64,000 bases of DNA from Acorus gramineus (Eukaryota > Streptophyta > Magnoliopsida > Acorales > Acoraceae). Positions 9,846-62,244 of this stretch are shown here, piece after piece. A model generated the notes under the pieces. It saw nothing but the letters and a program-made list of their open reading frames with translations, did not search any database and was not told where the DNA came from. How positions within the stretch are numbered: the stretch's first letter is position 1; each line of letters opens with the position of its first letter. The DNA is taken from positions 4,249,272 through 4,313,271 of the forward strand of contig CM060856.1 in assembly GCA_030737835.1 (NCBI GenBank), in the 5' to 3' direction. The position numbers and the translations under genes were made by a program.

Positions 9846-9997
9846 ATATAGATCTAGATTTTTGTTGATGATGTTTAATATATTTTGTGATAGTTTTTAT
9901 CCAATACATGAAAAAAAAATTTATGTTAGTTTGTGCTGGGCTATTAATAAACATTGCAATTTGAACAACTTCACTGCAACTAACTTCATTTGTTTTG

Positions 9998-10417
9998 GGG
10001 AAATTAATTAAAGGTCCCTGTGTACACCTCTGTAATAAGAATAGGTCTCTGGAATTTTTCTTATTTTCTTTAGGTCCCTCAGTTAATGGTGGTATTATGT
10101 TTAGATTCTTCCATCTAACTTCTATCCAACCTAATTTTTTTCCTTCCTCTTTTACCCCCAACTCAATATGTTTTTCCTTTTCTCCCCCAACCTTTCTATT
10201 TCTTCCTCAAACAAATGAAAAGGTAAGACCACCTCCACCAGCACCCCCCACTACGCCCCCCCCCCCCCCACTGGCCGATCCAGCCTCCACCAGCGCCCCG
10301 CAACCTCTCCTGACCTTCTCTCACTGGAGCCCGACCACCCCCCGTGACCCCATCGCCGCCCACAACCCTCCTGCGACCCCACAGAGGTGTCCCTAGGGAC
10401 CTCTAATTAATTTTTTC
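9998..10417. mobile_element. Small non-autonomous MULE with a GC-rich insert (Pack-MULE-like)
   Basis: Left end GGGAAATTAATTAAAGG; right end in reverse complement GAAAAAATTAATTAGAGG. Flanks are ATTTGTTTT (about 9988-9996) and ATTTGTGTT (10418-10426), a 9-bp target duplication with one mismatch. The termini and the repeated phrase AGGTCCCT match those of the 20-kb MULE at 42141-62235, so both belong to one family. The interior holds a C-rich block (about 10225-10385) with Pro-coding triplets, unlike its AT-rich surroundings, as in MULEs that have captured host sequence. It is too short to encode a transposase. Confidence 0.66.
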
Positions 10418-42131: not shown

Positions 42132-42279
42132 TCTTGTTTTGGGAAAATTAAGTAGAGGTTCTCCAGCCTATCCCTCATTATTTTTAGATCCCTGGATCTT
42201 TTTAAGATATTTCTAGGTCCCTAACCCCTGGTTTAATTATTTCTGAGTCCAAACTAACTGCTGCCGTTTCATCCCCCAT

Positions 42280-43138
42280 GCGAAATGTCCTTCCTACCCT
42301 CCCACTTAATCTTCCTCTCTCTCTCCCAATTTCACCCCCAAAATCTCTCTACCCAAAAACCCCTCTTTTCTCTTCAAAACCCTAAAAAACCTCTAATCGT
42401 CCTCCCTCCGTCGATTTCTGCATTCGTTGGCGGCGACACCCACGAACGAAGAATCCATCAACGGCGACGATCCTAGAAGCCCTCGCGACATCATCGACGG
42501 CGACGCCAATGATCCTCCGCGGCAGCGACATCCTCCTCCTCAAAGTACGTCAAACTCTTCCCTTTCATCACATGATATATAAAATGCATGATGATATGGA
42601 TTTGCCTTTGGTGGATTTGCTGCTTGTGCTTTACAAATGCATGATTAACATCTTGGCTTGCATTGTTGTGTCGGTTAGTTTATTAGTACTATGTAATATC
42701 CTAATAGTACACTGTTAAGCTTATTGGTACACTAGTAAATCTTTGTGGTACATTGTTAAACTAATGATAGCATGTGTTGAAGTAAAATTACTTTAACAAT
42801 TCATTGTGAATGAGATGTGTGGCTTCATGTGTTGGTTGAGAGGATGTGACACATTCATGTAAAGAAGAGGAAGAGGAGGGTGAGGAGGAGGGGTAGGTGG
42901 AGGAGGAGGAGCTGTATAGGAGGGGAAAAAAAGAAAGGATTGGCCATTGGAGGGTTTTTGAAGAGAGGACTGGACACTGTGAAGCTTGTGCAAAGAATGT
43001 GAGGCCATTGGATGGTTTATTGTTTCTTTTCTTGTTTGTATTTTAAAGCAGTTGTAATGTTTGATTCCTGCTTTTTATTTGTTTGTGTGATTTTTATGTG
43101 TTTATGTGTTTACATTTTTATTTTCGCACACTGTATAG
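42280..43138 (+). promoter_or_regulatory. 5' leader of the MULE plus-strand gene
   Basis: CT-rich stretch (42290-42420), then a GC-rich block (42400-42540, ggcggcgac words) and a GTACGTC donor-like site after CTCAAA at 42540-42546. The first 21-bp motif array (42686-42760) follows. An acceptor-like CTGTATAG (43131-43138) precedes the first clear coding exon. Leader with an intron is the likely reading. Confidence 0.4.
42686..42760 (+). repeat. 21-bp motif array A
   Basis: Copies of GTACAYTGTTA-like sequence start at 42686, 42707, 42727 and 42748. In the leader of the MULE plus-strand gene. Confidence 0.75.
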
Positions 43139-43253
43139 GATTGAAAAAATAACTCGAATAGAGGATTTGATACCAAGAAGAAGTCCAAGGTTTAATACGG
43201 TGGTCAAAATTCCTCCGAAGTCTAAAGCTCCTTCCAAACCATCCATTGAATCC

Positions 43254-46200
43254 TGTCACGCCCCAGGGCGGCCGTCCCCGGGACGCGGCAAGTATATATA
43301 TGATATCAGTGACAGGAAATCAATAATAAACCACAAACAATCACTAAAATGACACACAGATAAAAACAGGGCTGACATAATATATACACCGAGTGCGGAA
43401 GCTAAAAGACTGAGTCTGTAGTCAAAAACATACTACAGACTCGATACATAATCATAAGTCCTGTGAGAGCCAACATGCCCATATATATATACAACAAAAT
43501 CCAAATACAATCCAACTAAGTGCCCAAGCACAGAACATATACGTACAACAGAAAGAAGGGTGCTGATGGCCTCAAAACTCGTGGGACGCGGCGCTGCCCT
43601 CTGCCGGTGTAGTCGCTCGGGAAGCTCCTCCCTCAGAGATCACTGAAAAGACAATATGCGAGGGGTGAGCCACACGCTCAGTGAATAGCACAACCCATGC
43701 ATACAGTTCATATTAACCACATTTAATCAATTCATAAGCCACAAGTGGCATAATATCACCATCCGGGGGTTCGTTCATCGCCGAACTCCATACCCTCACC
43801 CTCACCCTCACCCTCAACAGGTGACCTAGGATGTTGGGACTTAGCGGGTTGATAAACATCCATTCATAATCCTGTGGGTCGTCGCATCGCCGGCCCACCA
43901 TACCCTCACCCTCACCTCTCAACAGGTGACCTAGGCTCTTGGGACTGACTAGGCTGTTGGTTACCCTTGGTCCACCGATAGTCTCTCCTCACTCCGCGGT
44001 TGTTTGGCCACTCCCATGTTCAGCGCAGTCCTTCCAAGTCAGGAGGCGCCTACTAGTGGGAGCCCCTGCACGGGACAACCTGTCTAACGCCGAGGTAGTC
44101 TCTACACGGATCCGACGAGGGGAACAGAACAGCCTATCCATCGCATATGATCCACTCGGATCCGCTGACAGCACATCTCTAAGACTCTAATGTCTCGAAT
44201 TCCTCAGAATTCCACCAGCGCGCATAACCAGGATGCGGGGAACATGCATTTAGTAATCATAATACAAGGGAAAATAGAGACCTTGGGAGGGTAACCTGAG
44301 GTCCCGATGTAGGACATCCGACAACCAAACGAGGAACACGGAGTACCCTAACCCGGGTCTCAATGTTAACCTCGCAAGGCCCCCTTATATTCCCTAAGCA
44401 TGCTATCAATTATTACAGTTTGCATTTAATTAAATAAACCAAACTAATAGGACGCATGCACAGGTCGGGTTTTCCTAGCATGATAACGGGGAGGCAGGAT
44501 GCATGGCTCATGCACAATCCTAAGGGTGCAAGTCCCTATCACACAATCTAGGGTGGCATGCAATTCTACACACACATCATGCTTACATGGTTATAAAATA
44601 ACAGTTAATACAAGCTATACGCCCCAGGGGAGAGCGGTACACGCCCAAAGCATGTAACGCCTCCCAAACTGGGTTGGGTTGTCCCACTCACCGGAAATCG
44701 GGTCGACACGCGACCGTCCGTCGAGATCTGCAAGACAAGGTATTAACTGGTTAGAATAAATCCACAATTATCCCAAAAATACATAACACACACAAACAAA
44801 CATCCAACACCCCCCGGCAACCACCCGCACGGCCGGCCACCACCCGCACGGCCACCCGACCGCCCGGACGCGCCGCCGCGCCTCAGCCCGCGCACTCCGC
44901 GCACCGCCCGGGGCCCCGCGCGTCCACCGAGCCCAGCCGCGGCAGCCCGCACGCGCCCCGCACGCCGTGCGCACGCTCCTCGCCCCGCGCGCACCTCCGC
45001 CGCTCCGCGCGCCCCGCGCACGCCTCGCGCACAGCTCCTCGCCCCGCGCCTCCTCCGCGCGCGCCCCAGCACCCGTGCGCTCCGCTCAGCACCTCGGCCA
45101 GCACCTCCGCCAGCACCTCGCGCGTCCAGCACCTCCGCCAGCACCTCGCGCGTCCAGCACCTCCGTGCGCGCCCAGACCAGCGCCCAGACCAGCTCGCCA
45201 TCAGCCCCTCGCGCACAGCACCACCCGAGCAGCTCGCACGCCTCGCACCGCCGCGACCAGCTCCCCCGAGCGCACGCCCGCGCGCACGCTCGCGCGTACG
45301 CACGCGCGCACGCCCAGCCGGCTCCTGCTCGCCGCCTGTGCAGCCTGAGGCCCCCAGCCCATCCAGCGCGCCCAGCACGACCAGCCCCACGCACCAGACC
45401 CGCGCACATCCACGCACACGCCGCGCGCACGCACACCCGCGCACGCACGCGCGCATGCCCGCGCGCGCCCGGCCTGCGCGCTGCCTGGCCGCTGCCGCTG
45501 CTCCCTGCTGCCCGGGACAGTCCCCAGCCTGCCGAGCGTCTCCAACCTCCCCTCCCACTGCCCCGACCACCTCCAGCCACCTCCGACCACCCTCCGACGA
45601 CCCCCACCGCCACCAACCACCTCCCAAGCACAAAACCCTCCCCTAGCAATCATCTAGACGAGAAATAAGAGGGAAAGGAGGCTTACCGAGGGGAGGAGGA
45701 GGCGTCCGGTGGATCTCCACGCGCCGAAACCCTTCCCACAAGCCTTCTCACGCCCCGATCTATCACGGCCCTTGATTTGGCTCGAAACAGAGGAGAGAGA
45801 GGGGAGGTCGGGGAGGCTAGGATCGTCGGAATTCGGATTTGAAGACACCGGAGCGTAGATCGGGACCCGATCTACACTTCCCGTGCTTTAGGTTTTTGGT
45901 TTTGAGGGGTGTAGGGGGCTCGAACAGAAGAAAAACGGAGGAGAGGAGAGAGAGAGTTCTAGTCGGGAAGATGATGAATAGTGTTGAGATATTTTTGATT
46001 CCTTTTAAGTAGAGCGCGACTTAAAAACCCGGATACGCCCCGGAACTGCGAAATTTTTGCAAACGATGCCAGAATTCGATGAAATTTTCATGAGTGGCTT
46101 AAAATGGCACCAGGAGACATAATATGCAGTTAGATTTTCAATCGGAGTCCTCTAACTCGGACGATAGCTAACAGTCCAAAATTATGCGGTTCCGATCGAA

Positions 46201-46276
46201 AAACCCTGAAAATTTTAAAACTGCAAAAAATGCTCCAATGGTTGCCAATAGGCCGAAAAGTTACACATATATAACA
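43254..46276 (-). mobile_element. Solo LTR 1 of a Ty3/gypsy retrotransposon (3.0 kb)
   Basis: On the plus strand it starts TGTCACGCCCCAGGGCGG and ends CATATATAACA, the inverse of the plus-oriented LTR at 53714-57075. AATCC flanks both sides exactly (43249-43253 and 46277-46281). No internal region is present, so it is a solo LTR left by recombination. It contains (CCCTCA)n repeats at about 43793-43816 and a GC-rich, CpG-rich block at about 44820-45560. Confidence 0.95.
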
Positions 46277-46281
46277 AATCC

Positions 46282-46780
46282 CCTACTCAAAACTCATCCA
46301 TAGAAGCTCCTCCCAATCCACCAACTGAATCTCCTACTGAAAACCCGTCCACAAAAGCTCCTTCCAATCCATCCATCGAATCCCCTACTAAAAATCCATC
46401 CACTAAAGCCCCTACTGAAAACCCATCCACCAAAGCCCCCACTGAAAATGCATCTAGAAAAGCTCATTCAAAGCCTTCCAGCAAAGGCCCTGCAAAAAAG
46501 TCGTCCATAAAAGCTCCTTTGAAGCCTACCACCAAATCACCCACTACAAAGCCACCCACAAAAGCTCCTTCTAAGCGTTCTACCAAATCCCCTGCGCAAA
46601 AGTCGTCCACAAAAGCTTCTTCGAAGCCTTCCACCAAATCCCCTGCTCAAAAGCAATCCACAAAAGCTATTTCCAAGACTTCCACCAAATCCCCTACTCA
46701 AAAGCAGTCCACAAAAGCCCAGTCCAAGCCATCCATCAAAGCTCCTTCTAAGGAATCAACTGAAGCCCCTCCAAAAAAAA
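46282..46780 (+). repeat. Degenerate coding minisatellite (Pro/Ser/Thr/Lys repeats)
   Basis: Repeating units of about 30-33 bp encode variations on STKAPSKP and STKSPAQK, a basic low-complexity linker in the MULE protein. The frame is open throughout, so the repeat was kept as coding sequence until recently. Confidence 0.8.
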
Positions 46781-46892
46781 AGGTTCAAAAGAAATCAGTC
46801 AAGAAGTCCAATGTTTCTATGGAAGAAAATAGAGGTAAACAATTCTGTGTCCTACTTATTGGTTTATTGAAATATATGCGGTTATGTGCTAT

Positions 46893-47063
46893 GTGCATTG
46901 TAATATAATTTGGGTACATTGTTAATCTTCATGGGTACACTGTTGAAATATATTTTTTAAACTAAAGAGTATACTTTGATGGACTATAATTTAAGACATT
47001 TTTTCTCAGTACATTGTTATATGTTATGGGTACATTGTTAATTTTAATAAGTACTTTGTTAGT
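46893..47063 (+). repeat. 21-bp motif arrays B and C
   Basis: Copies at 46893, 46914 and 46935, then at 47009, 47030 and 47051, all 21 bp apart within each group. In the intron after the Pro/Lys repeat exon. Confidence 0.82.
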
Positions 47064-47419
47064 GTCAGTAACTTTTGTTTGTAATATATTATCATTTTTT
47101 TCAGTAACTAATGCTTGTCCTATTATTCCATATATACAGAAACAATCCAGTTGCCCTTCATTCCTAAGTCTTTGTTAGTTCAACACCGCTGTTTTCCTAT
47201 TTATTATAGGAAAACGATGGACAGGATTGCAATGAGGGACTGTCATTGGAATGTATTGAAGAAGACACCATTCTACATCTTGGTGGACATCCCCAAGATA
47301 GGATTCAAAGCTGAGTTACTTGATATAATTATCAGTAACTACAGTCTTGATGATGGTGTCTTCAAGATTGGTGGAAGACGATTACCGTTGACGGCTGAGG
47401 AGGTTGCCCTCATCATAGG

Positions 47420-50400
47420 TGTCACGCCCCAGGGCGGCCGTCCCCGGGACGCGGCAAGTGTATATAAAATATCAGAATCTACACAGGAGGTCAATAATAT
47501 ATCATACACAACCAACCAGAATGACACACAGACAACAAAGGGGCTGACATGATATATACACCAAATGCGGAAGCAAAAGACTGAATCTGTAAATAAACAT
47601 ACTACAGACTCGATACTCAATCATCTGTCCTGTGAGAGCCAATATACACAAATACAACTGAATATATACAAACGCGTGCCAAGCACGGAAATAAAATACA
47701 TACAGCCAAGAAGGGATGCTGATAGCCTCTGGCACTCGCGGAACGTAGCGCTGCTCCGCTACTGAAGGAATCCCTCGGACGGCTCCAACTGCTGCTCCGG
47801 CTCCAGCTCAGGCTCAGTGACAACTGAGGAAAAACATATGCGAGGGGTGAGCCACACGCTCAGTGAACAGCACAACCCATGCATCACAGACAATATTGAC
47901 CACAATTCATTTATTTATCCAGCCTCTAAGTGGCATAACACATAACCCAGTGGGTCGCTCCATCGACGACCCACCACACCCTCACCCTCACCCTCACCCT
48001 CAACAGGTGACGCAGGATATTGGGACTGATAATCATCCAATCACAAAACCAGCGGGTCGCTCATCGCCAACCCACTACTCCCTCACCCTCACCCTACCAC
48101 GGGTGACATAGGATTTTGGGACTGACTAGGTTGTTGGTCACCCTTGGTCCACCGATAGTCTCTCCTCCACTCCGTAGGCCGCTTGGTCTACTCCCACATT
48201 CAGCACAGTCCGAAACCAAATCAGGAGGTGCCTACTGATGGGAGCCCTCACCCACAACTTCAGCACAGTCCGAAACCAAAATCAGGAGGCGCCTACTGAT
48301 GGGAACCCTTGGAAGGGATGGCCTTTCTAACGCTGGGGCAGCCTCTACCGGATCCAACGAAGGGGACAGAACAGCCTATCCATACGCACATGATCCACTC
48401 GGATCCGCCGACTACACACCTCAACGACTCTAATGTCCTGAATTCCTCAGAATTCCTCCAGGGCGCATAACCAAGATGCGGGGAACATGTACAATAATAG
48501 CAAGGTTGGAATATTACTGGGGGAAAGAAACTTGGGAGGGCAGCGTGAGTTCCCGATATAGGACACCCCGACAACCAAACAAGGAACACGGAGTACCCTA
48601 GCCCGGGTCTCACCGCTGTCCTCGCGAGGCCCCTCCCCTATAATATTCACTAAACATGCTAATAATCATATAAGGGTAAATCATTAATTATCAACTAGAG
48701 ATATAATATTATTGGGACAAGAACCTTGGGAGGGCAGCATGAGGTCCCGATACAGGACATCCCGACAACCAAACAAGGAACACGGAGTACCCTAACCCGG
48801 GTCTCAATGTTGACCTCGCAAGGCCCCTCCCTATAATATTATCTAAAGCATGCAATTAACATATACTAGCATTTAATTTAATAAATAAACTAGTAGGACA
48901 CATGCATAGGCCAAGGCTTCCTAGCATGAGAACAGGGGGACAAGATACAGGGCTCTTACACCTATCCTAAGGGTGCAAGTCCCTAACATGCAAGTCTAGG
49001 GTAGCATGCATTCTACACATAAATCATGCTGCATGGATTAATATTTATAACAGGCTAATATACATCCATGGTGCCCCAGGGGAGGGCAATACACTCCCAA
49101 GTGAGTAGTATGCCTCCCTACTGGGTTGGATTGTCCCACTCACCAGAAACCGGGTCATCGCGCGACCGTCCGTCAAGATCTGCAAGACAGGGTAGTAACT
49201 TGGTGAGTAAAACCCAAAAACACTACAAAATATACCAAGCTACACAAATAAATACCCAACACTCGGGCAAACGTACATACGACCCGTACGCACGCTAGCC
49301 CGAGCACCCCGACACACTCCCGCACCCCCGGCAACCATCCGCACGGCCACCCGCCCCCGGATGTGCCGCCGCGCCTCAGCCCGCGCACCCAGGCGCACCG
49401 CCGGGCCCCTGCCCGCCCGCCTGGACATGCAGCCGAGCCACCCGGGTGCACCGCACGCCCACTGCGCCCCGCCGCAGCAGCCCGCGCGCACCACGCGAGC
49501 ACATCGCACGCCCTGCGCGCCCAGCGCCTCGCCCCGCGCCCACCCCGCGCGCACCTCCAGTCTCGCCCCGCGCGCACCCCTCGCGCACCACCCGCTCGCG
49601 CCCACTGCTCTCCTCGCGCGCACGCCTGCGCCTCTGCCCAGCGCCCCGCGCGCGCTCCTGCACCCAGCGCCCAGCATCCGCGACCCAGCACCCGGGACCC
49701 TCACCCAGCGCGCCTGCCAGCCTGCCAGCGCTGCTGCTCGCGCTGCTTGCCTGCACGCATAGCCGAGTGGCCCGAGCACCGCTCGCCTGCACGCCTGGGC
49801 ACTGCCCGCCTGATGCCCGAGCACCTCCTACCCAGCACACCTGCGCGCCTAGCCTGCGCGCCCGACCTGCCAGCGCGCACAACCCAGCCAGCCTACCCCC
49901 CCCCCCCCCGCACCCCCCGAGCGCATGCCCGTGCGCGCGCCCGCGCGCCTGGCAAACTGGTGCGCCTGCTCCCTGCCTACCCGGAACAGCTAGCCTCCCT
50001 GCCCGGACTGCCACCACCCTGCCCGACCACCCAAACTCCCTTCCACAGCCACCAACGGCCTCCGACCACCACCCACAGCCCTCCGACGGCCACCCACAGC
50101 CGCCGACCACCACCCAACCTCATAACCACCCTCCTAACATACATCTAAGCATGAAAAGAGAGGAAAAAGGGCTTACCAAGGGGAGGAAGAGATGTTCGGT
50201 TGCTCTCCGCGCACCGAAACCTTTCCCCAAAGGCCTCCAATGCCGGGATCTTCCTTGGCCCTCGAATTGGCCCAAATCAGAGGAGAAAAGAGGGGGGATG
50301 GAGGGGCCAATCTTCTCGGAATTCGAATCCGAGAACACCGGGGCGTAGATCGGGACCCGATCTACTCTTTCTATGTTATGGGTTTTGAGTTTCAAGCCCT

Positions 50401-50768
50401 CCAAGGGGCTTAAAAGCAAGAAAAATGGAGAAGGAGAGAGAGAGAGAGCTCAAAGAGGAAGATGATGAATAGTGCATGACTTTTCTCACCCCTCTTATAT
50501 AAAGTCAACTCACTTAAAAACCCGGATACGCCCTGGAACTGTGAAATTCTGGAAACGTTGCCGGAATTCGATGAAATTTTCGTGAGAGGCCTAAAATGGC
50601 ACCAGGACACCAAATATGCAGTTAGATTTTCAATCGGAGTCCTCTAACTCAGGACGATAGCTAACAGTCCAAAAATTAGCGGTTCCGATCGAAAACCGAA
50701 AAAAACGAAAAAAACTGCCAGAACGCTCCAACGGTTACCAGCAGCCTAAAAGTGACACATATATAACA
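47420..50768 (-). mobile_element. Solo LTR 2 of the same gypsy family (3.35 kb)
   Basis: ATAGG flanks both sides exactly (47415-47419 and 50769-50773). TATA-like TTATATAAG on the minus strand at about 50494-50502. It has two private duplications: a ~60-bp tandem repeat around 48195-48300 (cagcacagtccgaaacc) and a ~190-bp one at about 48510-48845 (gggagggcagc). Joining its flanks restores the MULE reading frame, showing insertion into a coding exon. Confidence 0.95.
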
Positions 50769-51502
50769 ATAGGGTTGCTTGCCTCTGGGGAGAGGGCAAT
50801 CACGGACTCGAAGTCAGTGGATTCCAGGCTGAAGAGTAAGTATTTCAGTAATGATACTTACATCACAAGGGACGCATTGAAGGTTAAGATGGTGGAGTTG
50901 GTGAATTCGGACGAGGAAGAGGACGGAGTTGGTGAATTCGGACGAGGAAGAGGACGTGCAGGATTTCGTTCGACTTTGGATTGCACTTATGTTTGCAAGT
51001 TTCCTATTTCCAGTTCGCCACTACATTTGCCCGCTACCCCTCCTATCGTATTTGGACGATTTGGAGGGAACGTGGAGGTATGCATGGGCTGTTTCCATCA
51101 GAGAGCAGTTGATGGAATCAGTGAGGAAGGTGTGGCCAAGCATAGTCAGCCGCAATGAAGGCAAGTACCTCAAAAGCTCAATAGGGTACTTGTTTGGATG
51201 CACGGTCATTTTATGTGTAATTTTATCTTTATATTCATTATTTTTATATTTAGTTGTTTGTTATATTGCTTTGTATATTAATTTATAAACTTTTGTATAG
51301 GCCTGGTTTTACGAACATGTTAAAGGAGATCGGTGGAAACCAGTGGGACATCATGTGCCCCCACGGTTGTTTAAATGGGCCATGAAGATGAAGAGAAGGG
51401 ATGAAAATAATATCAACCCCTTCAATGTGAAAGTATTTGAGGTATATGTCATATTCATTTTTGGTTTGCAAACTTCATTGTGCTAACTGTTTTTTAGAAT
51501 AA

Positions 51503-51593
51503 GTACATTGTTATATCTCATTAGTACACTTTTAAATATTCATAGTACACTGTTATATCTTACTAGTACATTGTTAATAGGTATACTATTAAT
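51503..51593 (+). repeat. 21-bp motif array D
   Basis: Copies at 51503, 51524, 51545 and 51566 (21 bp apart) and a weaker one at 51581. In the intron before 51605. Confidence 0.85.
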
Positions 51594-51878
51594 ATTTATT
51601 ACAGGTTGTTAGAAGCCTCACTCCCGTTGATGGTGAAAGGTGGCTCCATTATGGAGGCCCCAAGAAAGAAGTCAAGCAGAAGAACATTCCATTGAATTAC
51701 TGGAAGGGTGATGAGAAGGATGATGATGAACCTGCCCATGTGGCACCTAAGAAGAATTTGACACAACATGTCTCTGTCGGTTTGAAGAAGAGGAAGCTCC
51801 CACTCGTTAGACAATATCAGCAGATGAGATTGATAAAGAGATGCAAGAGGCTAGAGATAGAGGTGGATGCTTTGAAGG

Positions 51879-52186
51879 ATGAGAATGCTCTTTTGGATGC
51901 TCTGAGAGCTGAAGTGGGAGTACTTTGGGCTGAGAATGCCTGCCTATTGGCCAAGGAAGCTGTGAATAAGGAGAAAAAAGAAAAAGAAAAGGAGGAAAGC
52001 CTTGATGATGATCATGACGATGATTATGCGACTTATGATCTTTTTGGTGATCTTGAGATCGGGGATGAAGAGGAGCAAAAAATCATTGAGGAGCATGCTC
52101 AATTTTGCTCCCAGTCATGCTCCCAGGCATTGGAGATGTCCCCATCCTCGCAGGGAATGGACGTGTCCAGGTCCATTGTGCCTTTC
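51879..52186 (+). repeat. 308-bp direct duplication, left copy
   Basis: Coding sequence of the MULE gene (coiled-coil and acidic part). It recurs at 59113-59420 with constant offset 7234 and no difference that I can see; translations in two frames are the same. Confidence 0.95.
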
Positions 52187-53713
52187 TGCCACACCCCAGG
52201 GCGGCCGTCCCCGGGACACGGCAAGTGTATACATGATATCAGCAGTCTATACAGGAGATCAATAAAATACTCTAAACAACAACTAAAATGACAACACAGA
52301 CGAAAGCAAGGCTGACATGATATATACACAGATAGCGGAAGCTAAAAGACTGAGTCTGTAATTCAAAAACATACTACAGACTCGATACATAATAAACTGT
52401 CCTGTGAGAGCCAATATACACACATACATCCAAGTATAATACAAACAGGTGCCCAAGCACGGAAATATGATACATACAGTCAAAAAGGGATGCTGATGGC
52501 CTCTAATACTCGCGGGACGTGGCGCTGCTCCGCTACTGATGAAATCCCTCGGGGAGCTCCTCCTTCAGATCCGACTCCGTGATAACTGGAGAAAAATTAT
52601 GCGAGGGGTGAGCCACACGCTCAGTGAATAGCACAACCCATGCATCACAATTCATATTAACCACAATTAATTAATAAAGCCTCAAAGTGGTAGGAAATAC
52701 ACAAATCCAGTGGGTCGCAACATCGCCGACCCACCACACCCTCACCCTCACCCTCTAAGTAGGTGACATAGGATATTGGGACTGACTAGGCTGTTAATCA
52801 CCCTTGGTCCACCGATAGTCTCTCCTCCACTCCGTAGGCCGCCTGGTCTACTCCCACAATTCAGCACAGTCCAAACCCAAATCAGGAGGTGCCTACTGAT
52901 GGGAGCCCCTTGTCAGGAAGGCCTGTCTAATGCTGGGGCAGCCTCTATACGGATCCAACGAAGGGAAAAGAAACAGCCTATCCATACGCATACGATCCAC
53001 TCGGATCCGCCAACACTGATCTCAGCTTATAAATGTCATGAATTCTTCAGAACTCCTCCAGGAGCGCATAACTAAGATGCGGGGAACATATACAATAACC
53101 ACCAGGTTATAATATTATCGGGAAAGGAAACCTTGGGAGGGCACCATGAGGTCCCGACATAGGATATTCCGACAACCAAACAAGGAACACAGAGTACCCT
53201 AGCCCGGGTCTCAATGTTGACCTCGCAAGGCCCCTTATAATATTCCCTAAGGCATGCTAAAATACCATAAGTTCACATTTAATTTAATAAATTAAACTAG
53301 TAGGACACATGCATAGGTCAAGGCTTCCTAGCATGAGAACATGGTGACGGGATGCATGGCTCTTACACATATCCTAAGGGTGCAAGTCCCTAACATACAA
53401 GGCTAGGTTAGCATGCATACTACATATTAATCATGCTAGCATAGATTACATATTAATCAGGTTCATATTAAACTATGGTGTCCCAGGGGAGGACGGTACA
53501 CGCCCAAGTGCATATAGCGCCTCCCTACTGGGTTGGGTTGTCCCACTCACCAATAATCGGGTCGTCGCGCGACCGTCCGTCAAGATCTGCAAGACAGGGT
53601 AATCAACTCGGTGAGTAAAATACACAAATATAAACAAAAATACACTAAAATACCCAACACTCGGACAAGCGTACATACGGCCTGTATGCACGCGAGTCCG
53701 AGCACCCCGACTC
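52187..53713 (-). mobile_element. Truncated gypsy LTR 3
   Basis: Starts TGCCACACCCCAGGGCGG and follows solo LTR 2 closely for 1.5 kb, including the (CCCTCA)n tract and the acceptor-like CTGCAAGACAGG site. It then stops at GCACCCCGACTC, exactly where the plus-oriented LTR begins. CTTTC (52182-52186) before it is the likely left target duplication. Confidence 0.88.
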
Positions 53714-56700
53714 TGTTATATATGTGTCACTTTTAGCCTGCTGGTAACCGTTGGAGCGTTCTGGCAGTTTTTCGTTTTTTTTCGGTTTTCGATCGGAACC
53801 GCTAATTTTTGGACTGTTAGCTATCGTCCTGAGTTAGAGGACTCCGATTGAAAATCTAACTGCATATTTGGTGTCCTGGTGCCATTTTAGACCTCTCACA
53901 AAAATTTCATTGAATTCCGGCAACGTTTCCAGAATTTCGCAGTTCCGGGGCGTATCCGGGTATTTTAAGTGACTCGCTATATAAGTGAGATCTAAAAATC
54001 TGATTGGCACTATTCATCATCTTCTTCCCTTAGCTTTCTCTCTCCCCTTCTCCATTTTTCAAGCTTTTGAGCCCCTTAAAGCCCTCAAAGCTTAAAACCT
54101 AAAGCATAGGAAGTGTAGATCGGGTCCCGATCTACACCCCGGTGCTTTCAAATCCGGTTTTCGGCGAGTTTTGCCCCTCCGTCCCCCCTCTTTTCTCCTC
54201 TGATTTGGGCCAATTCGAGGGCCAAGGAAGATCCGGGCGTTGGAAGCCTTTTGGGAGAGGTTTCGGTGCGCGGAGAGCAACCAGACTTCCCTTCCTCCCT
54301 TTGGTAAGCCTTCTTTCCTCTCTTTTCTTGTATAGATGTATGTTAGGAGGTTGGTTTGAGGTTGGGAGGCGGTCGGCGGCGGTGGGTGGCCGTCGGAGGG
54401 CTGTGGGGGTGGTCGGAGGCCATTGGTGGCCGGTGGTGGGAGCTAGGCAGTCCGGGCAGGTTGGCTAGCAGTCCCGGGTGAGTTGGTAGCGGGCGCAGCA
54501 AGCTGGGGCACCAGGTGGCTGGGTGCGCAAGGGCGTGCGCGCGGCGTGCGCTCGGGTGGTGTTGTAGGCGTGCTGGGCGCTGGGTAGTGCTAGCTCGGGT
54601 AGGCTGGGAGCAGGTGCACCAGTTGCCGGGCGCGCGAGCGCGTGCGCGCGGGTGCGCGCGCGGGCGTGCAGGGGGAGGCGTGCAGAGCAGGCTGGCTGGC
54701 CTGTGGGAGCTGGCAGGCCGGGCAGGCAGGCTGGGCGCACAGGCGTGCTGGGCAAGAGGTGGTCGGGCCTCAGGCGAGCAGTACCCGGGCGTACAGGCGA
54801 GCGGTGCTCGGGCCACTAGGCGATGCGCTCAGGCAGGCAGCGCGGGCAGGCTGGCAGGCGCGCTGGGCGCGTGCTGCCAGGCGCGCTGGGCGCATGTTGC
54901 GCGGGCGTGCGCGTGGGCGCTGGGTGAGGGTCCCGGTGCTGGGCGCTGAGCGCTGGGAGCTGGTCGCGGGTGCTGAGCGCTGCGCGTGGGGCGCTGGCCA
55001 GAGGCAGGCGTGCGCGCGGGCAGAGGCTGGTGGTGCGCGCAGAGTGCGCGCGGGTAGAGGCTGGTGGTGCGCGCGGAGTGCACGCGGGTAGAGGCTGGAG
55101 GTGCGCGCGGGGCGAGGCGCTGGGCGCGCGGGGCGTGCGGTGTGCTCGCGGGTCAGCGCGAGGCGTGCGGGGTGCGCACGGGCTGCTGCGGCGGGGCGCA
55201 GTGGGTGCGCGGCGCACCGGGTGGCTCGGCTGCCAGTCCAAGCGTGCGGGCAGGGGCCCGGCGGTGCGCCTGGGTGCGCGGGCTGAGGCGCGGCGGCGCA
55301 TCCAGGGTCGGGTGGCCGTGCAGGTGGTTGCCGGGGGTGCGGGTGGTTGCTGGGGTGCTCGGGCAAGCATGCGTGCGGGTCGTATGCACGTTTCCCCGAG
55401 TGTTGGGTGTTTTTTTGTGGGTTTTGTATGCTTTTGTGTATTTTGAGTATGTTGTGGATTTTTACTCACCAAGTTGTTACCCTGTCTTGCAGATCTCGAC
55501 GGACGGTCGCGCGTCGACCCGATCTCCGGTGAGTGGGACGATCCAACCCAGTAGGGAGGCGTTACATGCACTTGGGCGTGTACCGTCCTCCCCTGGGGCA
55601 CCATAGTAAATATTAACCTGTTTAATATGAAAAGCTATGAAAGCATGATAATCTGTAGTATGCATGCCGCCTAGATTTGTATGCTAGGGACTTATACCCT
55701 TAGGACCCGTATAAGAACCATGCACCCTGTTATCATGTTTCCATGCTAGGAAAGCCCCGACCGATGCATGTTCCCATTTAGTTTATTTATTTAAATAAAA
55801 TGCGAGCATGTGATTATTATCCTGTCGTAGTGAATATTATAGGGGAGGGGCCTCGCGAGGACAGCGGTGAGACCCGGGTTAGGGTACTCCGTGTTCCTTG
55901 TTTAGTTGTCGGGATGTCCTATATCGGGACCTCACGCTGCCCTCCCAAGGATTCTTTCCCCGTTAATATTCCAACCTTATTATAACTATTATGCATGTTC
56001 CCCGCATCTCGGTTATGCGCCCTGGTGGAATTATGAGGAATTCAGGACATTAGAGTTGTTAGGGTGTGTTGTCTGCGGATCCGAGTGGATCATATGCGAT
56101 GGATAGGCTGTTCTGTTCCCTTCGTTGGATCCGTGTAGAGACTGCACCAGCGTTGGAAAGGTCGTCCCGTGCAGGGGCTCCCATCAGTAGGCACCTCCTG
56201 ATTTGGTAGAAGGACTGTGCTGAATGTGGGAGTGGCCAAACGACCTACGGAGTGGGGAGAGACTATCGGTGGACCAAGGGTGACCAACAGCCTAGTCAGT
56301 CCCAAGAGCCTAGGTCACCTATTGAGGGTGAGGGTGAGGGTATGGTGGGCCGGCGATGTGGCGACCCACTAGATTGTAAGTCCCAATATCCTTGGTCATC
56401 CAGTGAGGGTGAGGGTGAGGGTGTAGCGGGTTGGCGGTAGCGACCCGCTGGCTTTGTGTAATTAGTCCCAATATCCTTGGTCACCCATTGAGAGGTGAGG
56501 GTGAGGGCGTAGTGGGTTGGCGGTAGCGACCCACTGGATTGCGGAGTTGCTGCCATTTTATGGCTTGAGTAATGTGATTGTGGATTAAATTATATCTGGT
56601 TGTGGTTAATATAAGTTGTGATGCATGGGTTGTGCTGTTCACTGAGCGTGTGGCTCACCCCTCGCATAATATTTTTCTCCAGTGTCATCTGAGTCGGATC

Positions 56701-57075
56701 TGGAGGAGGAGCTCCCCGAGGGACTTCATCAGTAGCGGAGTAGCGCCACGTCCCGCGAGTATGAGAGGCTATCAGCATCCCTTTCGCCTGTATGTATTAT
56801 ATTCCGTGCTTGGGCATGTGTTTGTATATTATTTGGATGTCTTTGTATATATTGGCTCTCACAGGACAGTTGATTATGTATCGAGTCTGTAATATGTTTT
56901 TGGATTACAGATTCAGTCTTTTAGCTTCCGCTTTTGGTGTATATATTATGTCAGCCTTGCTTTTATCTGTGTAGTCATTTTTAGCTGTTGTGTGAGTATG
57001 TTATTGAACTCCTGTTTACTGATATCATATATACACTTGCCGCGTCCCGGGGTCGGCCGGCCCTGGGGCGTGACA
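53714..57075 (+). mobile_element. Gypsy 5' LTR, plus orientation (3.36 kb)
   Basis: Begins TGTTATATATGTGTCAC and ends GGGGCGTGACA. TATATAA at 53978-53984 marks a likely core promoter, so U3 is only about 270 bp and R/U5 about 3 kb. It contains a G-rich (GAGGGT)n region at about 56324-56500, a GC-rich block at about 54510-55340 and the conserved GAGCGTGTGGCTCACCCCTC sequence. A primer-binding site follows directly. Confidence 0.93.
53978..53984 (+). promoter_or_regulatory. TATA box of the gypsy LTR
   Basis: TATATAA inside CTCGCTATATAAGTGAG, 265 bp into the LTR. The same place in solo LTR 2 keeps TTATATAAG on its strand, while solo LTR 1 has lost it. Confidence 0.65.
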
Positions 57076-57080
57076 AAAGT

Positions 57081-57092
57081 TGGTATCAGAGC
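57081..57092 (+). other. Primer-binding site (initiator-Met tRNA type)
   Basis: TGGTATCAGAGC, five bases after the LTR end, is the standard plant retrotransposon site complementary to the 3' end of initiator methionine tRNA. Confidence 0.92.
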
Positions 57093-57194
57093 CTGGTCCT
57101 GTCAGAGCCAATGGTCTTCTTTTCGTAGAGATGAGTCCTAGGATTTCTATATGTGTATTCTGATCCTAGTGTCTGGTTTTCTTAGGTTGCTGAT

Positions 57195-58290
57195 ATGCCT
57201 CCTCGCAAAGGACGGCGCGGACATGGTCCCTCTCGACCTTTGGAGGTTTCCGGACCTACTAGAGGCGAGGATGCTACTGGAGAGTCCACGGCTGTGAGGC
57301 CAGGATCGGCGCAGGAGCCTCCCGCATGGGAACGTGCGTTCGCTCGGTTAGCGGATTTAGTGGAGACTCAGACCGGGGCACTGGAGGCCCAGACCAGAGT
57401 GTTGGTAGAGCAGGCGCGGGAGATCCAGGAGCTGAGGGCGGCCCGTGATGTAGTTCCACAGGTCCCCTTGGTGGCAGATCCGCCTGTGGTACCCGAAGTA
57501 CCCCCAGTCCCCGTGGCGATTCCGGCGGTGAGGGTTCAGGATCCCCCGGCGAGGGAGGTGGAGCTGGAGGCTGCAACGCGGGTGCAGCAGAGTGGCCTCA
57601 TAGCCTTCCTAAAGCTCCGTCCTCCCGAGTTCTACGGCCAGTCGGCGGATCCCCTTGCCTCAGAGCGATGGTTGATGGAGGTGGAGGTGATCTTCTCGAC
57701 CATGCTTTGCACCGATCGCCAGCGAATCTCCCTTGCCACCTTCATGCTGAAGGGTAGCGCTGCCGACTGGTGGGCTACCCGAGTGGTGGACATTCCCGAG
57801 GGATTGGAGCAGCTTTCTTGAGCGGGATTCCGGAGGTATTTCCTGGAGGAGTGCTTCCCGTTCTCGACGCGGCAGATCGTGATGCAGGAGTTTGAGCGGT
57901 TGACGCAGGGCTCTATGTCTATCGCCGACTACTCCACGCGCTTCACGAGGCTATCCAGATTCACTCCAGCCTTGGTGATTGATGAAGAGGCGAGGTGCCG
58001 CCGTTTCGAGCTTGGACTCTGCAGCGCCATTCGGGAAGAATGTCTCCTCCCAGGCTTTCTCGAGGTTCTCGGACTTGGTGTCTCGAGCGAAGACAGTCGA
58101 GCGAGACCTCGGGATCCTCGTGAGGGTTCCGACCCCTTCTGCAGATCAGGGTCCTTCCGGAAGTCAGGACCAGGGGCAGCGCAAGAGGAAGAGGCCCCAC
58201 TTCGATTGGTCAGCGGCTGCCTCTTCTCCAGCAGATGCGGTGCCAGTGTGGGATCCGGCACCCATTGCGGCAGTTCCCATCCAGTCCAGC
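57195..58290 (+). pseudogene. Ty3/gypsy gag fragment (nonsense, frameshift, 3' truncated)
   Basis: Frame starts MPPRKGRRGHGPSRP at 57195 and contains the plant gag (retrotrans_gag) signature: FLKLRPPEFYGQSADPLASE, RWLMEVEVIF, MLKGSAADWWATR, later MQEFERLTQGSMSIADYSTR. A TGA interrupts it at 57819-57821 (after EQLS, where family members have Trp) and a frameshift near 58045 moves the frame to SSQAFSRFSDLVSRAKTVER and RKRKRPHFDW. At about 58290 the gag runs into GC-rich LTR sequence in the opposite orientation; zinc knuckle, protease and pol are missing. The long LTRs and this gag type suggest the Tekay/Del chromovirus lineage, which is inference. Confidence 0.88.
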
Positions 58291-59113
58291 CCCGGGTGCA
58301 CCCGCGCGCACTGCGCCCCAGCGCAGCGCCCCGCACGCGCACCTGCCCGCACTGCACCCCCTGCGCAGTGCCCCGCACGCACTCCCCCGCACGGCGCCCA
58401 GCGCACAGCACCCGCACGCGGCCTTGCGCGCACAGCACGCACTGCGCCCCCCCCCCTACGCAGCACCCGCGCGCTCGCCTGCGCAGCACCCGCGCGCACG
58501 AGCGTGTGCCCTGCCAGCCCGCCTGCCTGCCCGCGCGCGCAGGCCCGATGAGCCCGCACTGCCCGAGCCGGCTCTACCACCCCTCTCAGCCCTCCAACAG
58601 CCTCCAACAGCCCCCAAACCACCAAGCACACCTTTCACTCCCAACAACACACCTAAACATACATCTAGACAAGAAATGGAAGGAAAGGAAACTCACCCAA
58701 GGGAGGAAAGGAAGGGAGGGAACTTCGGGTGCTCTTCGCGCACCGAAATACCACCACCAAGGCCACCACCACCAAGCCTTCAACTCAGCCTAAGAGGGGC
58801 TGAAACAGAGGAGAAAAGAGACCATGAGAAGGGGTCACACAAGTGGGAATTCGAATCCGAGACCACCGGAAGGTAGATCGGGTTCTTACCTATCCTTTCT
58901 CTTCTTAGAGAGAGAGAAATTTTGGAGAAGATGATGAATAGGAGGGGCTGTTTGTAGTCGTGGGATTTATTTATGCTCACACACCCACCACACACTCTCA
59001 CACCCACTTAACTTGAAATTAGATTAGGTTAAGCTAGGTTAGATTAGGTTTAAGTGAGGTTTGACCCTAGTCAACCCAACCACACTAAAAGCCAAAATAA
59101 TTTGACCAAGTCA
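58290..59113 (-). mobile_element. Partial gypsy LTR 5, related but diverged subfamily
   Basis: Matches the GC-rich block and promoter-proximal part of solo LTR 2 with much divergence (shared words such as catacatctagac-aagaaa, gaaacagaggagaaaagag, gtagatcgggt). Its outer end differs: on the minus strand it starts TGACTTGGTCAAATT instead of TGTTATATATG. TGAGA (59114-59118) after it is a candidate target duplication whose partner would be 51880-51884. Confidence 0.68.
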
Positions 59114-59420
59114 TGAGAATGCTCTTTTGGATGCTCTGAGAGCTGAAGTGGGAGTACTTTGGGCTGAGAATGCCTGCCTATTGGCCAAGGAAGCTGTGAA
59201 TAAGGAGAAAAAAGAAAAAGAAAAGGAGGAAAGCCTTGATGATGATCATGACGATGATTATGCGACTTATGATCTTTTTGGTGATCTTGAGATCGGGGAT
59301 GAAGAGGAGCAAAAAATCATTGAGGAGCATGCTCAATTTTGCTCCCAGTCATGCTCCCAGGCATTGGAGATGTCCCCATCCTCGCAGGGAATGGACGTGT
59401 CCAGGTCCATTGTGCCTTTC
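59113..59420 (+). repeat. 308-bp direct duplication, right copy
   Basis: Identical to 51879-52186. Here the gene carries on past the CTTTC site into SQDPTEGVIKEGPK, while the left copy is cut there by LTR 3. Confidence 0.95.
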
Positions 59421-59718
59421 AGTCAAGATCCCACTGAAGGAGTGATTAAAGAGGGTCCGAAGCTTGCATCTTACGTTGAACTTGTCAAGAGGAGATCGAG
59501 GACCATATCTCACCTCCTCCGTTCTCCATACATGACATGTAATTTGGCCAGGAAATTGGCTAAGAAGATGAAGTAAATAGTCATCACAATTTCATCACAA
59601 ACGGAAGATGTTCTTTCTATTTTTTTCATCACCACCAAAGAGCAAGAAGCTGGCAGCAAAGGGAGGGAAGAGAGTGTGGTTAAACATGCTTGAATAACTG
59701 CATTTTTTATTTATATTG

Positions 59719-59795
59719 TTATACTGTTAGCTCATATTAAGTACACTATTAAAGTATTATAGTACACTGTTAAATCCTAATTGTAGATTATAAAT
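59719..59795 (+). repeat. 21-bp motif array E
   Basis: Copies at about 59719, 59741, 59762 and a decayed one at 59783. In the noncoding gap before the Ulp1-like exons. Confidence 0.75.
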
Positions 59796-60424
59796 ATATA
59801 TCTCTGTTCATTGACTATGCAGTACCTGGAGAAGAGGAGGAACTACCAGGGGAAGCTGTTACTTTCAGATGAAGATAAGGGACTCATCGAAAAGTTCCTT
59901 TCACATCCGATAACAGGGTATACTTTAGTTAGGTCTTATATCTTTATACAATGTGAATATGCACCTATTATACCAATTCTATGTTTTTTTTTTCAGTGAC
60001 TCTGTTGTTCAGGTTGGACGAACTTTTATTACTAGGATTTGCTTGCGTGAAGTGCTCTTCAATGATGAGCTGCAATATGATGTGAATAATTGTTATTACT
60101 CAGGTAATGAAACTATCATGTAAAATATGAACAAGAAGTATGACATTGATTGTGTTTGTAATAGGCAATAGACATTTGGTTCGCAATATTAGAAGAGCAT
60201 GTTGAAACCAAATGGTTATACATCTACTCCTGGGCTCAGGTGAATTTTATCATTGTCGACGCCTTCATGATAACATGAATGATATCATTGTTCATACTCT
60301 AATTATGATTTTTATCATATTATAGAAAAAATTGAACAACACAAACCTTTGCTATGTTGACGGAGGTTCAGCCGAACAATATATGTACAATTTTGGTTCA
60401 TTTTGCAAAGGATGCACCAAGGAT

Positions 60425-60456
60425 ATTTTAATGGATCTGACATGATCCATTAAAAT
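60425..60456. repeat. Perfect inverted repeat at the truncation junction of the two MULE genes
   Basis: Arms ATTTTAATGGATC (60425-60437) and GATCCATTAAAAT (60444-60456) around a 6-base centre. Upstream lies the cut Ulp1-like gene, downstream the cut transposase gene. Confidence 0.9.
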
Positions 60457-60476
60457 GTAATTGGATATGGTAATCC

Positions 60477-61511
60477 CTATCCATGCCAAGCCTTATGATA
60501 TGGTAATTGGATTCCATAATCCCTAAACACGTCCTTTACTATATCTCTGGGTCGATACAATGGGGTGTCAATAAGCTTAGTCCTTGTAATCTCACCCATC
60601 CATCTTCGTGATGCTCTTGGATGACCATTTGTTGATATTCCACCACCACATGAATGAATATTGTTCAATGATTTGATGTGGAAGTAAGAGCCTAACCCGA
60701 CTCTCAAGCAATGAACTCACAATCCACAAGAAGGGTGTTTGCACATGGCAGTTACCCGTACCTTATCGTTCTTCACGTATTCAAAATCAAATGAATGCGC
60801 TATAGAATAATTGGTCAACTGCATGCAAAAATCTTCAACATTTTCAAATTGTTGATTCACCGAATGAATGATATTCTCCCAAAAGCTTGTCAGCATCCCA
60901 CCGCTTGAACTCCCATAAATGGCTTCCCCTTGAGAAACCATGCTACAAGATGTAGGTACTGTCGGGCCCAGGTTCAGGTGGGCACTGTTGGACATCCTAC
61001 AATTCATTCCCATCATAGCATTAGAAGTCATACAATAAAGCACATGAAGCATTATCATACAGTAGTAAAAATGATATATCATACACTATTATGGTTACTT
61101 AGTACAATGTTAACCAATAAGGGTACATTGTTAAATCATATGAGTACACTATTAGTATATAATTAAACCATTGATCATGACAAAAGGTAGTAAAACAAAT
61201 TACCTTTGTCCCGCATCTCCAGCAGAGTTTTGTTCAGAATTTATGAAAACATTAATTTGGATAAAGTTGGACCCACACATCTTGTGAATGTCATACATAG
61301 TCTCAACATCTTCATTGTTCACAAGAGTCGTTCTCATATTTTCTTGAATGGGAATGTCATACTTCAAAATGACTGTCGGTGCATCGAACTTCCATCTTTC
61401 ACATAATTTACTTACAATATCTGAAAGTGTTGTAGTTCTACCAACATGAACTACTCGTGTTTCTCCGTTGTAGGAACAAAATGCCATTAGGGTATCCATG
61501 TACAAACTCAA
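60477..61511 (-). pseudogene. MURA-type MULE transposase, N-terminal third only
   Basis: Exon 1 (about 61511-61205, minus strand) encodes a PB1-like domain: AFCSYNGETRVVHVGRTTTL and CERWKFDAPTVILKYDIP. After an intron holding a 21-bp motif array, exon 2 (from about 60996) starts MSNSAHLNLG and contains the MuDR DNA-binding signature QFENVEDFCMQLTNYSIAHS, FDFEYVKNDKVRVTAMCKHP, then FHIKSLNNIHSCGGG, NGHPRASRRWMGEI and DYGIQLPYHKAWHG. An in-frame TGA (60718-60720, after SCGL) stands where Trp is usual. The frame ends at 60477; the DDE/RNase-H-like catalytic core and zinc finger are gone. It runs towards the Ulp1-like gene (tail to tail). Confidence 0.86.
61081..61156 (+). repeat. 21-bp motif array F
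   Basis: Copies at 61081, 61102, 61123 and 61144, each 21 bp apart, in the intron of the minus-strand transposase gene but with the same DNA orientation as arrays A-E. Confidence 0.85.
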
Positions 61512-61632
61512 ATATTCTGCAAAAACGAATCATGTGTTACATCTCAGAACAGTATAAAATGCATTACGTACAATATCAATGCCACATACATACTCTGTAT
61601 CTACTAAACATAAAAATGAGATTTTAGACTGA

Positions 61633-61708
61633 GTACACTATTATATGATATGGGTACATTGTTCATTTATCTGGGTACACTGTTAATTGATCTGGGAACA
61701 ACGTAATC
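61633..61708 (+). repeat. 21-bp motif array G
   Basis: Copies at 61633, 61654, 61675 and 61696, each 21 bp apart, upstream of the first transposase exon, between the gene and the right TIR. Confidence 0.85.
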
Positions 61709-62244
61709 ATATCTCTGTATAACCATCAGAATTATATGAATAGTATCAGTTGACAGAATGCTAACACAGTCTGCATTTTATACTGTAACATAAATCCAGA
61801 ACCAAAAGCAATGCCATTGTTATTCAAACAATCTCTTTAGTTTGAGCATTATGATTCTCCATACCTATTTGTAACTCGTGGTTTCTTCACCGTCGTCGTG
61901 AGTTTTCAATGGAGAAGAAGAAGATTGGATGGTTCAACCGCAGTCATTATCGATCTCTAGGTGCGATTTAGAGTGTCGAAGACCCGATTTTCAGTGGTTC
62001 GGCCGTCATAGCCATGGGAGGGTGTTCAATGCAACTTAGGGTTTTGAATGGAATGTTCGGAGGGTTGGGGAAGAAGAAGGGAAGGGAAAAAACTAATTGT
62101 TGAAGGGGTATATTGGGTATGCTAACGGAGGAAGCAAACAACAACTGTTAGTTTGGACCTAGAAATATCTTGAAAAGGTTCAGGGACCTAAAAATAATGA
62201 GGGATAGGCTGGGGGGACCTCTAATTAATTTTTCCTCTTGTTTT

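Follow-up and report, generated by a model that had tools for sequence, protein, structure and literature searches.

The 64,000-bp stretch of Acorus gramineus DNA analysed here (the window; C10:4249272-4313271, contig CM060856.1, of a 398.6-Mb genome in 137 contigs) contains a Mutator-like element (MULE) with seven arrays of the 11-bp word GTACAYTGTTA. The element occupies positions 42141-62235. Its ends align as inverted repeats (local alignment score 116), and these terminal inverted repeats (TIRs) comprise about 85 bp with 88.9% identity over 81 bp. Since a perfect 9-bp target site duplication (TSD), TCTTGTTTT, is found at both borders and the joined transposase exons match the MuDR DNA-binding domain above the cut-off (PF03108, E=6.3e-10), the element is a Mutator-like element. 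The transposase gene lies on the minus strand and a second gene, termed the + gene here, on the plus strand; in the family to which the element belongs the two genes are convergent. A preliminary description of the window had proposed that the arrays are binding sites of the element's own protein and part of an undescribed anti-silencing or transposase-recruitment system. From the analysis reported below we consider it rather probable that the arrays bind a VANC-like protein of the element family which would counteract silencing. The borders and arrays are the following, with L numbers denoting loci fetched from elsewhere in the genome:

42132..42140: left TSD copy, 9 bp, TCTTGTTTT (border check)
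42141..42225, plus strand: left TIR (local alignment to the right end)
42686..42758, plus strand: array A, four units, steps of 20 and 21 bp, near the 5' end of the + gene (common to L033)
46893..46945, plus strand: array B, three units, in an intron of the + gene, absent in L034 (motif search)
47009..47061, plus strand: array C, three units, in the same + gene intron as B (motif search)
51503..51576, plus strand: array D, four units, in an intron of the + gene; three units in L034, a variant array in Family II (L037)
59719..59772, plus strand: array E, three units, steps of 22 and 21 bp, in an intron of the + gene (motif search)
61081..61154, plus strand: array F, four units, in a transposase intron, antisense to the transposase (motif search)
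61633..61685, plus strand: array G, three units, upstream of the transposase gene (motif search)
62147..62235, minus strand: right TIR (local alignment to the left end)
62236..62244: right TSD copy, 9 bp (border check)

All seven clusters named in the preliminary description are present at their places. With at most one mismatch GTACAYTGTTA occurs 19 times in the window (11 copies exact), always inside the element and on the plus strand; no copy was found at this threshold outside the element or on the minus strand of the window. At up to three mismatches the clusters hold 26 units (A 4, B 3, C 3, D 4, E 4, F 5, G 3), but those at 59711 and 61155 are out of register and probably due to chance, so that 24 is the fairer count. 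The earlier figure of about 27 copies was slightly high. At two to three mismatches the word is common elsewhere too; with two mismatches it was found 29 times inside and 11 times outside the element on the plus strand, and 2 and 12 times, respectively, on the minus strand. When the window was shuffled 100 times with its dinucleotide composition preserved, the mean was 2.13 copies (at most one mismatch, both strands) and the maximum 6, compared with the 19 observed. Pairs of copies 21 bp apart were observed 11 times and in none of the 100 shuffles, and the further distances up to 64 bp were 42 bp (five pairs), 41 bp (one) and 63 bp (one). The spacing of 21 bp claimed before holds, apart from a few steps of 20 or 22 bp in arrays A and E.

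Only about 6.8 kb of the element were assigned to the MULE itself (42141-43253, 46277-47419, 50769-52186 and 59113-62235), because an alignment with the relative L034 indicates that the remainder is inserted; this remainder, about 13.3 kb of the 20-kb element, is foreign DNA in three nested insertions. All seven arrays fall within the MULE-derived parts, and none lies inside an exon of the gene models made here. The statement that the arrays are confined to noncoding parts of a 20-kb MULE stands as far as their position in introns and upstream of a gene is concerned; it does not stand with regard to the 20 kb, most of which is foreign, nor as a confinement, for arrays are also found in other elements (see below). 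We also considered whether the arrays had been left behind by miniature inverted-repeat transposable elements (MITEs) inserted into the MULE, and rejected this, since none of arrays A to G is accompanied by a MITE terminal sequence.

The exons recognized in the window are listed here:

46277..46890, plus strand: + gene, K/P/S/T-rich tandem-repeat exon (51-bp repeat at the DNA level; exon end approximate)
47151..47419, plus strand: + gene, first exon of the PMD/DUF1985-like domain, interrupted by insertion II (own match at C10:4296422-4296697)
50989..51438, plus strand: + gene, second half of the PMD/DUF1985-like domain (translation and exon matches)
51599..52186, plus strand: + gene, exon coiled-coil-like by eye (translation and exon matches)
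59113..59579, plus strand: continuation of the + gene, the first 300 bp being an exact duplicate of 51879-52178 (alignment)
59823..60120, plus strand: + gene, start of a region Ulp1-like by eye, the rest of it not seen (two exons matched at C5:12496772-12497077)
60480..61025, minus strand: transposase, exon of the MuDR DNA-binding domain with one in-frame stop (PF03108 as given above, joined exons)
61194..61499, minus strand: transposase, N-terminal PB1-like exon (PF00564, E=1.2e-4, slightly under the cut-off)

No catalytic part of the transposase was seen behind the MuDR DNA-binding exon of the window copy; in relatives the transposase frames are open up to 764 amino acids. The frame of the + gene is broken by a 31-bp tandem duplication (50894-50956) directly ahead of the exon at 50989. 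Missing gene ends, the in-frame stop, the frame breaks and the three foreign insertions all mark the window copy as broken. It is a member of a family in which transposase and VANC-like genes converge, and as it cannot make an intact protein itself, the earlier proposal goes too far in naming the protein of this very element as the one that binds the arrays.

Scans of single exons of the window with Pfam gave no element domain, whereas joined exons gave matches. For the joined domain of the + gene in the L034 copy these were PMD (E=3.5e-7) and DUF1985 (E=2.5e-5), both below the curated cut-offs. A genome search with PF02902 (Peptidase_C48, Ulp1) gave 74 matches, none of them within the window copy. 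Twelve adjoin copies of the + gene on the same strand and score 26-29 bits against a cut-off of 20.7, which agrees with the Ulp1-bearing KIU subtype. An Ulp1 exon beside a PMD/DUF1985-like + gene would correspond to the make-up of VANC anti-silencing proteins, the fusion of both parts in one transcript being putative. At 46275-46751 the + gene has a 51-bp tandem repeat encoding a K/P/S/T-rich tract, which resembles the variable repeat regions described for VANC proteins.

In the whole genome the exact word was found 2463 times on the plus and 2479 times on the minus strand; the reversed word gave 528 and 518 matches, so that the word itself is in excess by about 3,900. A search for pairs at the spacing of the arrays had been suggested in the preliminary description. 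Same-strand pairs with a gap of 0-30 bp (start distance 11-41 bp) numbered 436 and 429, together 865, compared with 0 and 0 for the reversed control, and the start distance was exactly 21 bp in 80 of the first 100 of the 865 pairs. The variant GTACAYTAYTA formed 49 and 57 same-strand pairs (control 0 and 2). Spacings are mostly 21, 42 and 63 bp. In longer arrays (L009-L028) neighbouring sub-arrays are sometimes set apart by 5 bp more than a multiple of 21 (47, 68 or 89 bp), a shift of half a turn which was seen in more than one element group.

The orientation of the arrays relative to the element genes was assessed with 100 of the 106 variant pairs, 100 of the 865 main pairs (loci on C1-C2), 120 of the 175 transposase matches and 56 of the 136 + gene matches; the matches left out are mainly further exons of a locus. 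The zones within 10 kb of a listed transposase or + gene match make up 0.62% of the genome. They contain 27 of the 74 variant-pair loci and 6 of the 69 main-motif loci, an enrichment of arrays near the element genes. Without exception the array is opposite to the nearest listed transposase (25/25 variant and 4/4 main loci, together 29/29) and has the same direction as the nearest listed + gene (18/18 and 3/3, together 21/21, with two of the 21 loci coming from one element, C1:29485972 and 29490512). The single orientation claimed before thus applies to the window element and to the remaining copies with genes that were seen; among non-autonomous elements it has exceptions, L019 and L036. Short motifs in same-orientation noncoding arrays, as found here apart from such gene-less elements, are what is expected of a VANC-type system.

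Next, the conservation of the word was compared with that of the spacers. In the window and the long loci fetched, each exact word was compared with its neighbours 21 bp up- and downstream, with no further selection. Among the 186 neighbours the identity was 0.60 at the 11 core positions and 0.39 at the 10 spacer positions; it was higher in the core in 141 cases and lower in 45. Off-register neighbours gave 0.24-0.38 depending on the group, and the difference between core and spacer was small in L036, L037 and L025/27/28. Spacers vary between element groups and the core is constant, a comparison biased if taken alone because the units had been chosen by their core match. The sequences suggest that selection acts on the word and not on the whole repeat unit.

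Relatives of the window element differ in their units. The protein of the + gene of L034 is 57-76% identical to that of the window, and its arrays are situated in the same three introns. Array D has four units in the window and three in L034, array B is missing in L034, and C and E differ by additional material of about one unit. L034 and L035 are apparently parts of one relative of about 33 kb (C1:29486136-29518778), which nested insertions have enlarged as they have the window copy. A second family, Family II, comprises at least 10 copies in which exons match and a transposase runs convergently at a distance of about 2-11 kb; they include C6:3332953, C32:8668146, C2:25720530 and C11:10415884. 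As there are many matching copies, with transposase frames open at 667-764 amino acids in several and the same array in most, Family II seems to have spread recently. In its C6 copy (L037) the + gene is 59% identical to that of the window in the two domain exons and 38% in the third. An array is also present in the intron homologous to that of array D; its units keep the 21-bp register in part, and they comprise one TGTTA, three TATTA and two TACTA besides weaker ones. The drifted pair was found at 12 places among the matches listed (11 identical, one with a single difference), on C2, C3, C6, C7, C9, C11, C32 and C43. We had considered that the type of motif is strictly family-specific, but dropped this since units with TATTA are present in the window too (arrays E, F and G), as well as in array E of further Family I copies. 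For the same reason a drift of the motif in Family II is only suggestive.

To describe the carriers of the arrays, 20 loci of 10 kb on part of C1 were taken from places with at least two matches within 2 kb among the first 100 of the 4,942 exact words. They include near-duplicates (L009/L010 by computation, L020/L021 and L027/L028 by eye). With the TIRs of the window element, L011, L015, L019 and L023 as queries, 17 of the 20 loci had a TIR match, 14 on both sides and three on one side only (L014, L016 and L013, where the match sits 2 kb off); when the four loci supplying queries are removed, 13 of 16 remain. In L027 a similar terminal word was seen by eye. Five further places were of two kinds: L001, L002 and L004 have two to four units together with TIRs, and L003 and L007 have a lone word and no TIR. 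Neither of the findings that the preliminary description had named as speaking against it was made. Arrays were not seen to be equally common in unrelated DNA, for at 17 of the 20 C1 loci the arrays lie in elements with the same termini, and the relatives of the MULE have arrays as well. Frames resembling NBS-LRR resistance genes by eye are situated a few kb or less from the arrays in L024, L027 and L028.

Among the carriers are miniature elements, of which we distinguish two types. The first is about 0.5 kb long and has inverted repeats of about 90-170 bp with the array in between (e.g. L023, 4801-5275, TSD ATTCTAAAA); the second comprises about 1.0-1.4 kb (e.g. L011, 4539-5625, TSD TAATATTTT). 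L019 (2.3 kb) and L036 (4.9 kb, both TIRs) are larger elements that share these ends and match none of the proteins of the window. The pieces encoded in L013 and L017 are related (E=1e-5), and because they resemble, by eye only, the N-terminal repeat region of the + gene, some gene-less elements look like deletion derivatives. The window itself contains a 421-bp MITE of the same terminal family at 9994-10414 with a perfect 9-bp duplication (or at 9997-10417 with one mismatch).

How can the arrays be explained? We regard it as very probable that they are protein-binding sites. It is likely that the protein binding them is encoded by the elements, and the product of the + gene is probably this protein. 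A protein whose units line up along one face of the DNA would fit the arrays, because the word has 11 bp, the phase is two helical turns, the polarity is fixed near the genes and the arrays are placed in noncoding parts and in miniature elements. The + gene product is the best candidate because DUF1985 proteins of Arabidopsis MULEs demethylate copies bearing arrays and VANC21 binds its own motif. Binding of VANC21 to its motif has been reported both in vivo and in vitro, and methylation is lost at copies with motif arrays (PMC5735166; see also PMC10398659). The arrays would accordingly be cis-acting sites spaced by two helical turns, so that protein units could stack on one DNA face, and the protein would combine a domain of the PMD/DUF1985 type with a basic region of tandem repeats and an Ulp1 (C48) domain. 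Bound to the noncoding arrays of any copy, autonomous or miniature, it would remove or block silent chromatin, which would allow transcription and mobilisation of the bound copies. We infer cooperative binding and loss of methylation as the outcome. The comparison with VANC proteins in the preliminary description was apt, since strand-polar arrays in introns and upstream regions recur in the family and a VANC-like protein, PMD/DUF1985-like with Ulp1, is encoded.

The nearest alternative concerns the other element gene, as the arrays could be sites used by the MULE transposase in synapsis or excision. In maize, MURA at the ends of Mu elements and TnpA at the subterminal repeats of Spm are transposition proteins of this sort, with their sites at the element ends. 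The transposase of the family has a DNA-binding domain (PF03108), and mobile gene-less elements with the same ends have arrays. Furthermore, MURA and TnpA have themselves been linked to hypomethylation (PMC10398659). Against this, the arrays have a single polarity near the genes and are situated in introns up to several kb from the ends or in the middle of MITEs instead of being mirrored at the termini. One MITE with target duplications has no array, though it could have lost it after insertion. We consider this explanation unlikely. Nor does a host protein account well for the arrays. Many plant transposable elements carry sites for host factors, GTAC is the core recognized by SPL/SBP-box factors, and a position in introns and on the promoter side would suit intronic enhancers of the element genes. 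However, an 11-bp word in a fixed 21-bp phase and with polarity is longer and stricter than the SPL core, and a constant host factor would not favour the change from TGTTA to TATTA or TACTA seen in one family, which makes host transcription factor sites quite improbable.

That whole units are gained and lost is what slippage would give, and the arrays might then be neutral tandem duplications of a 21-bp unit which hitch-hike in the elements. Yet the core stays alike while the spacers are near background, groups with different spacers share the core and the 21-bp phase, and the polarity is fixed near the genes; a neutral origin is therefore very improbable. A signal at the RNA level, acting in splicing or in the intron structure of the + gene, would be in keeping with the sense orientation at 21 of 21 loci near a listed + gene and with the many arrays in its introns. 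It can hardly explain arrays F and G, which lie in or before the transposase gene, antisense to it and outside any + gene exon seen, nor the arrays in MITEs without these genes, and we give it next to no credence.

Several observations weigh against binding of the arrays by the VANC-like protein. For the majority of the listed array loci (47/74 variant and 63/69 main loci) no element gene is listed within 10 kb. The strand is mixed at two of the 69 listed main-motif loci, neither of them near a listed gene, and L019 and L036 contain arrays in both orientations. The loci used for the polarity come from few families (about half from Family II) and are not independent, so independent cases are far fewer than the loci counted. 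Three of the 20 array loci have no TIR match (L025, L027, L028), and in three more it is only one-sided. Since the 421-bp MITE of the window lacks an array, there must be stages at which an element can do without one. Matches to PMD and DUF1985 in Pfam all stay below the curated cut-offs; the joined copy of the window matches PMD alone (E=0.0018), and among single exons one in L037 gave PMD at 0.0011, one in L034 PMD at 0.043 and DUF1985 at 0.17, and the other L034 exon no Pfam domain match. The transposase also carries a DNA-binding domain.

The kind of system considered here is known from Arabidopsis, and VANC proteins with same-orientation arrays of motifs in noncoding regions have been published (PMC5735166), so the system cannot be called undescribed. 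As reported there, VANDAL21 is a MULE with a transposase and a DUF1985 protein, VANC21, with variable repeat regions. Its arrays have one orientation and are placed ahead of the transposase gene and within introns of the VANC21 gene, and units are gained and lost, all as in the Acorus element. The motif given there is YAGTATTAY, whereas it is GTACAYTGTTA here, and binding was demonstrated for VANC21, whereas it is proposed here. The same source describes VANDAL6 with the related VANC6, whose motifs also occur in the non-VANDAL AT9TSD1, comparable to the MITEs here; its motifs are AGTTGTCC and AGTTGTAC, and the MITEs here share the termini of the MULE. A likeness of our motif to AGTA..TTAY of VANC21 or GTAC of VANC6 was set aside as too short to carry weight. 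In eudicots, specificity reportedly depends on motif sequence, density and helical periodicity, with non-autonomous elements among the targets (Sasaki et al. 2022, EMBO J). In the literature searched, which did not include that study, the GTACAYTGTTA motif, a strict 21-bp rule and miniature elements centred on arrays were not found.

Ulp1-bearing VANC genes are known as KIUs (PMC13317346), and in KI-MULEs the ULP part runs reverse to the transposase (PMC2528002). The Ulp1-bearing (KIU or Kaonashi) VANDALs resemble the present family in having a VANC gene with Ulp1 in a MULE; they differ in the motif, and TIRs are present here. VANDAL TIRs are called degenerate in PMC10398659, in contrast to the clear paired TIRs of about 85 bp found here, and for this reason we term the element VANC-like and not a strict VANDAL. 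Membership of the VANDAL clade is compatible with such TIRs, as PMC6446971 gives TIRs of 46-174 bp for some members of that clade. The SIRC (short interrupted repeat cassettes) of Arabidopsis (PMC10342631) are similar in having short direct repeats with diverse spacers and are thought by their authors to be derived from MITEs; they are defined by repeat detection, and the passages on them mention no fixed phase and no cognate element protein. MuDR/MURA and Spm/TnpA, mentioned in PMC10398659, resemble the system proposed here in that a protein of the element acts on the element's own DNA and influences how it is methylated.

It is also conceivable, if doubtful, that the arrays reflect a genome-wide anti-silencing economy with two tiers. 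One protein lineage would read the 11-bp word in 21-bp phase, and probably hundreds of miniature elements, consisting of ends and an array, would borrow the anti-silencing protein and the transposase. The drift of the 3' part of the word (TGTTA to TATTA or TACTA) would then be the start of a switch in specificity. If arrays bound by the VANC-like protein are indeed what we have found, anti-silencing of the VANC type extends to MULEs with clear inverted repeats, and a strict rule that can be scored (21-bp phase and polarity against the transposase) would find such systems in any plant genome. The miniature elements with and without arrays would offer a natural series for testing anti-silencing as a driver of MITE amplification, and the arrays together with the protein could be used as tools for sequence-specific demethylation, as Hosaka et al. 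proposed for VANC.

Finally, the nested insertions of the window copy are given with borders from the alignments:

43254..46276: foreign insertion I, retroelement-like, GC-rich (borders by alignment with L034/L035)
47420..50768: foreign insertion II (alignment borders)
52187..59112: foreign insertion III, compound, with a gag fragment at 57186-58793 (alignment borders)

The gag fragment matches PF03732 with E=6.2e-9. All three insertions share a GC-rich repeat family which is also present in L034 and L035 (about 67-97% identity, partly inverted), and this family may favour the MULE lineage. Insertion III is flanked by 300 bp of MULE coding sequence in two copies of 100% identity (51879-52178 and 59113-59412). 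This duplication far exceeds the length of a TSD and possibly reflects an insertion associated with repair.

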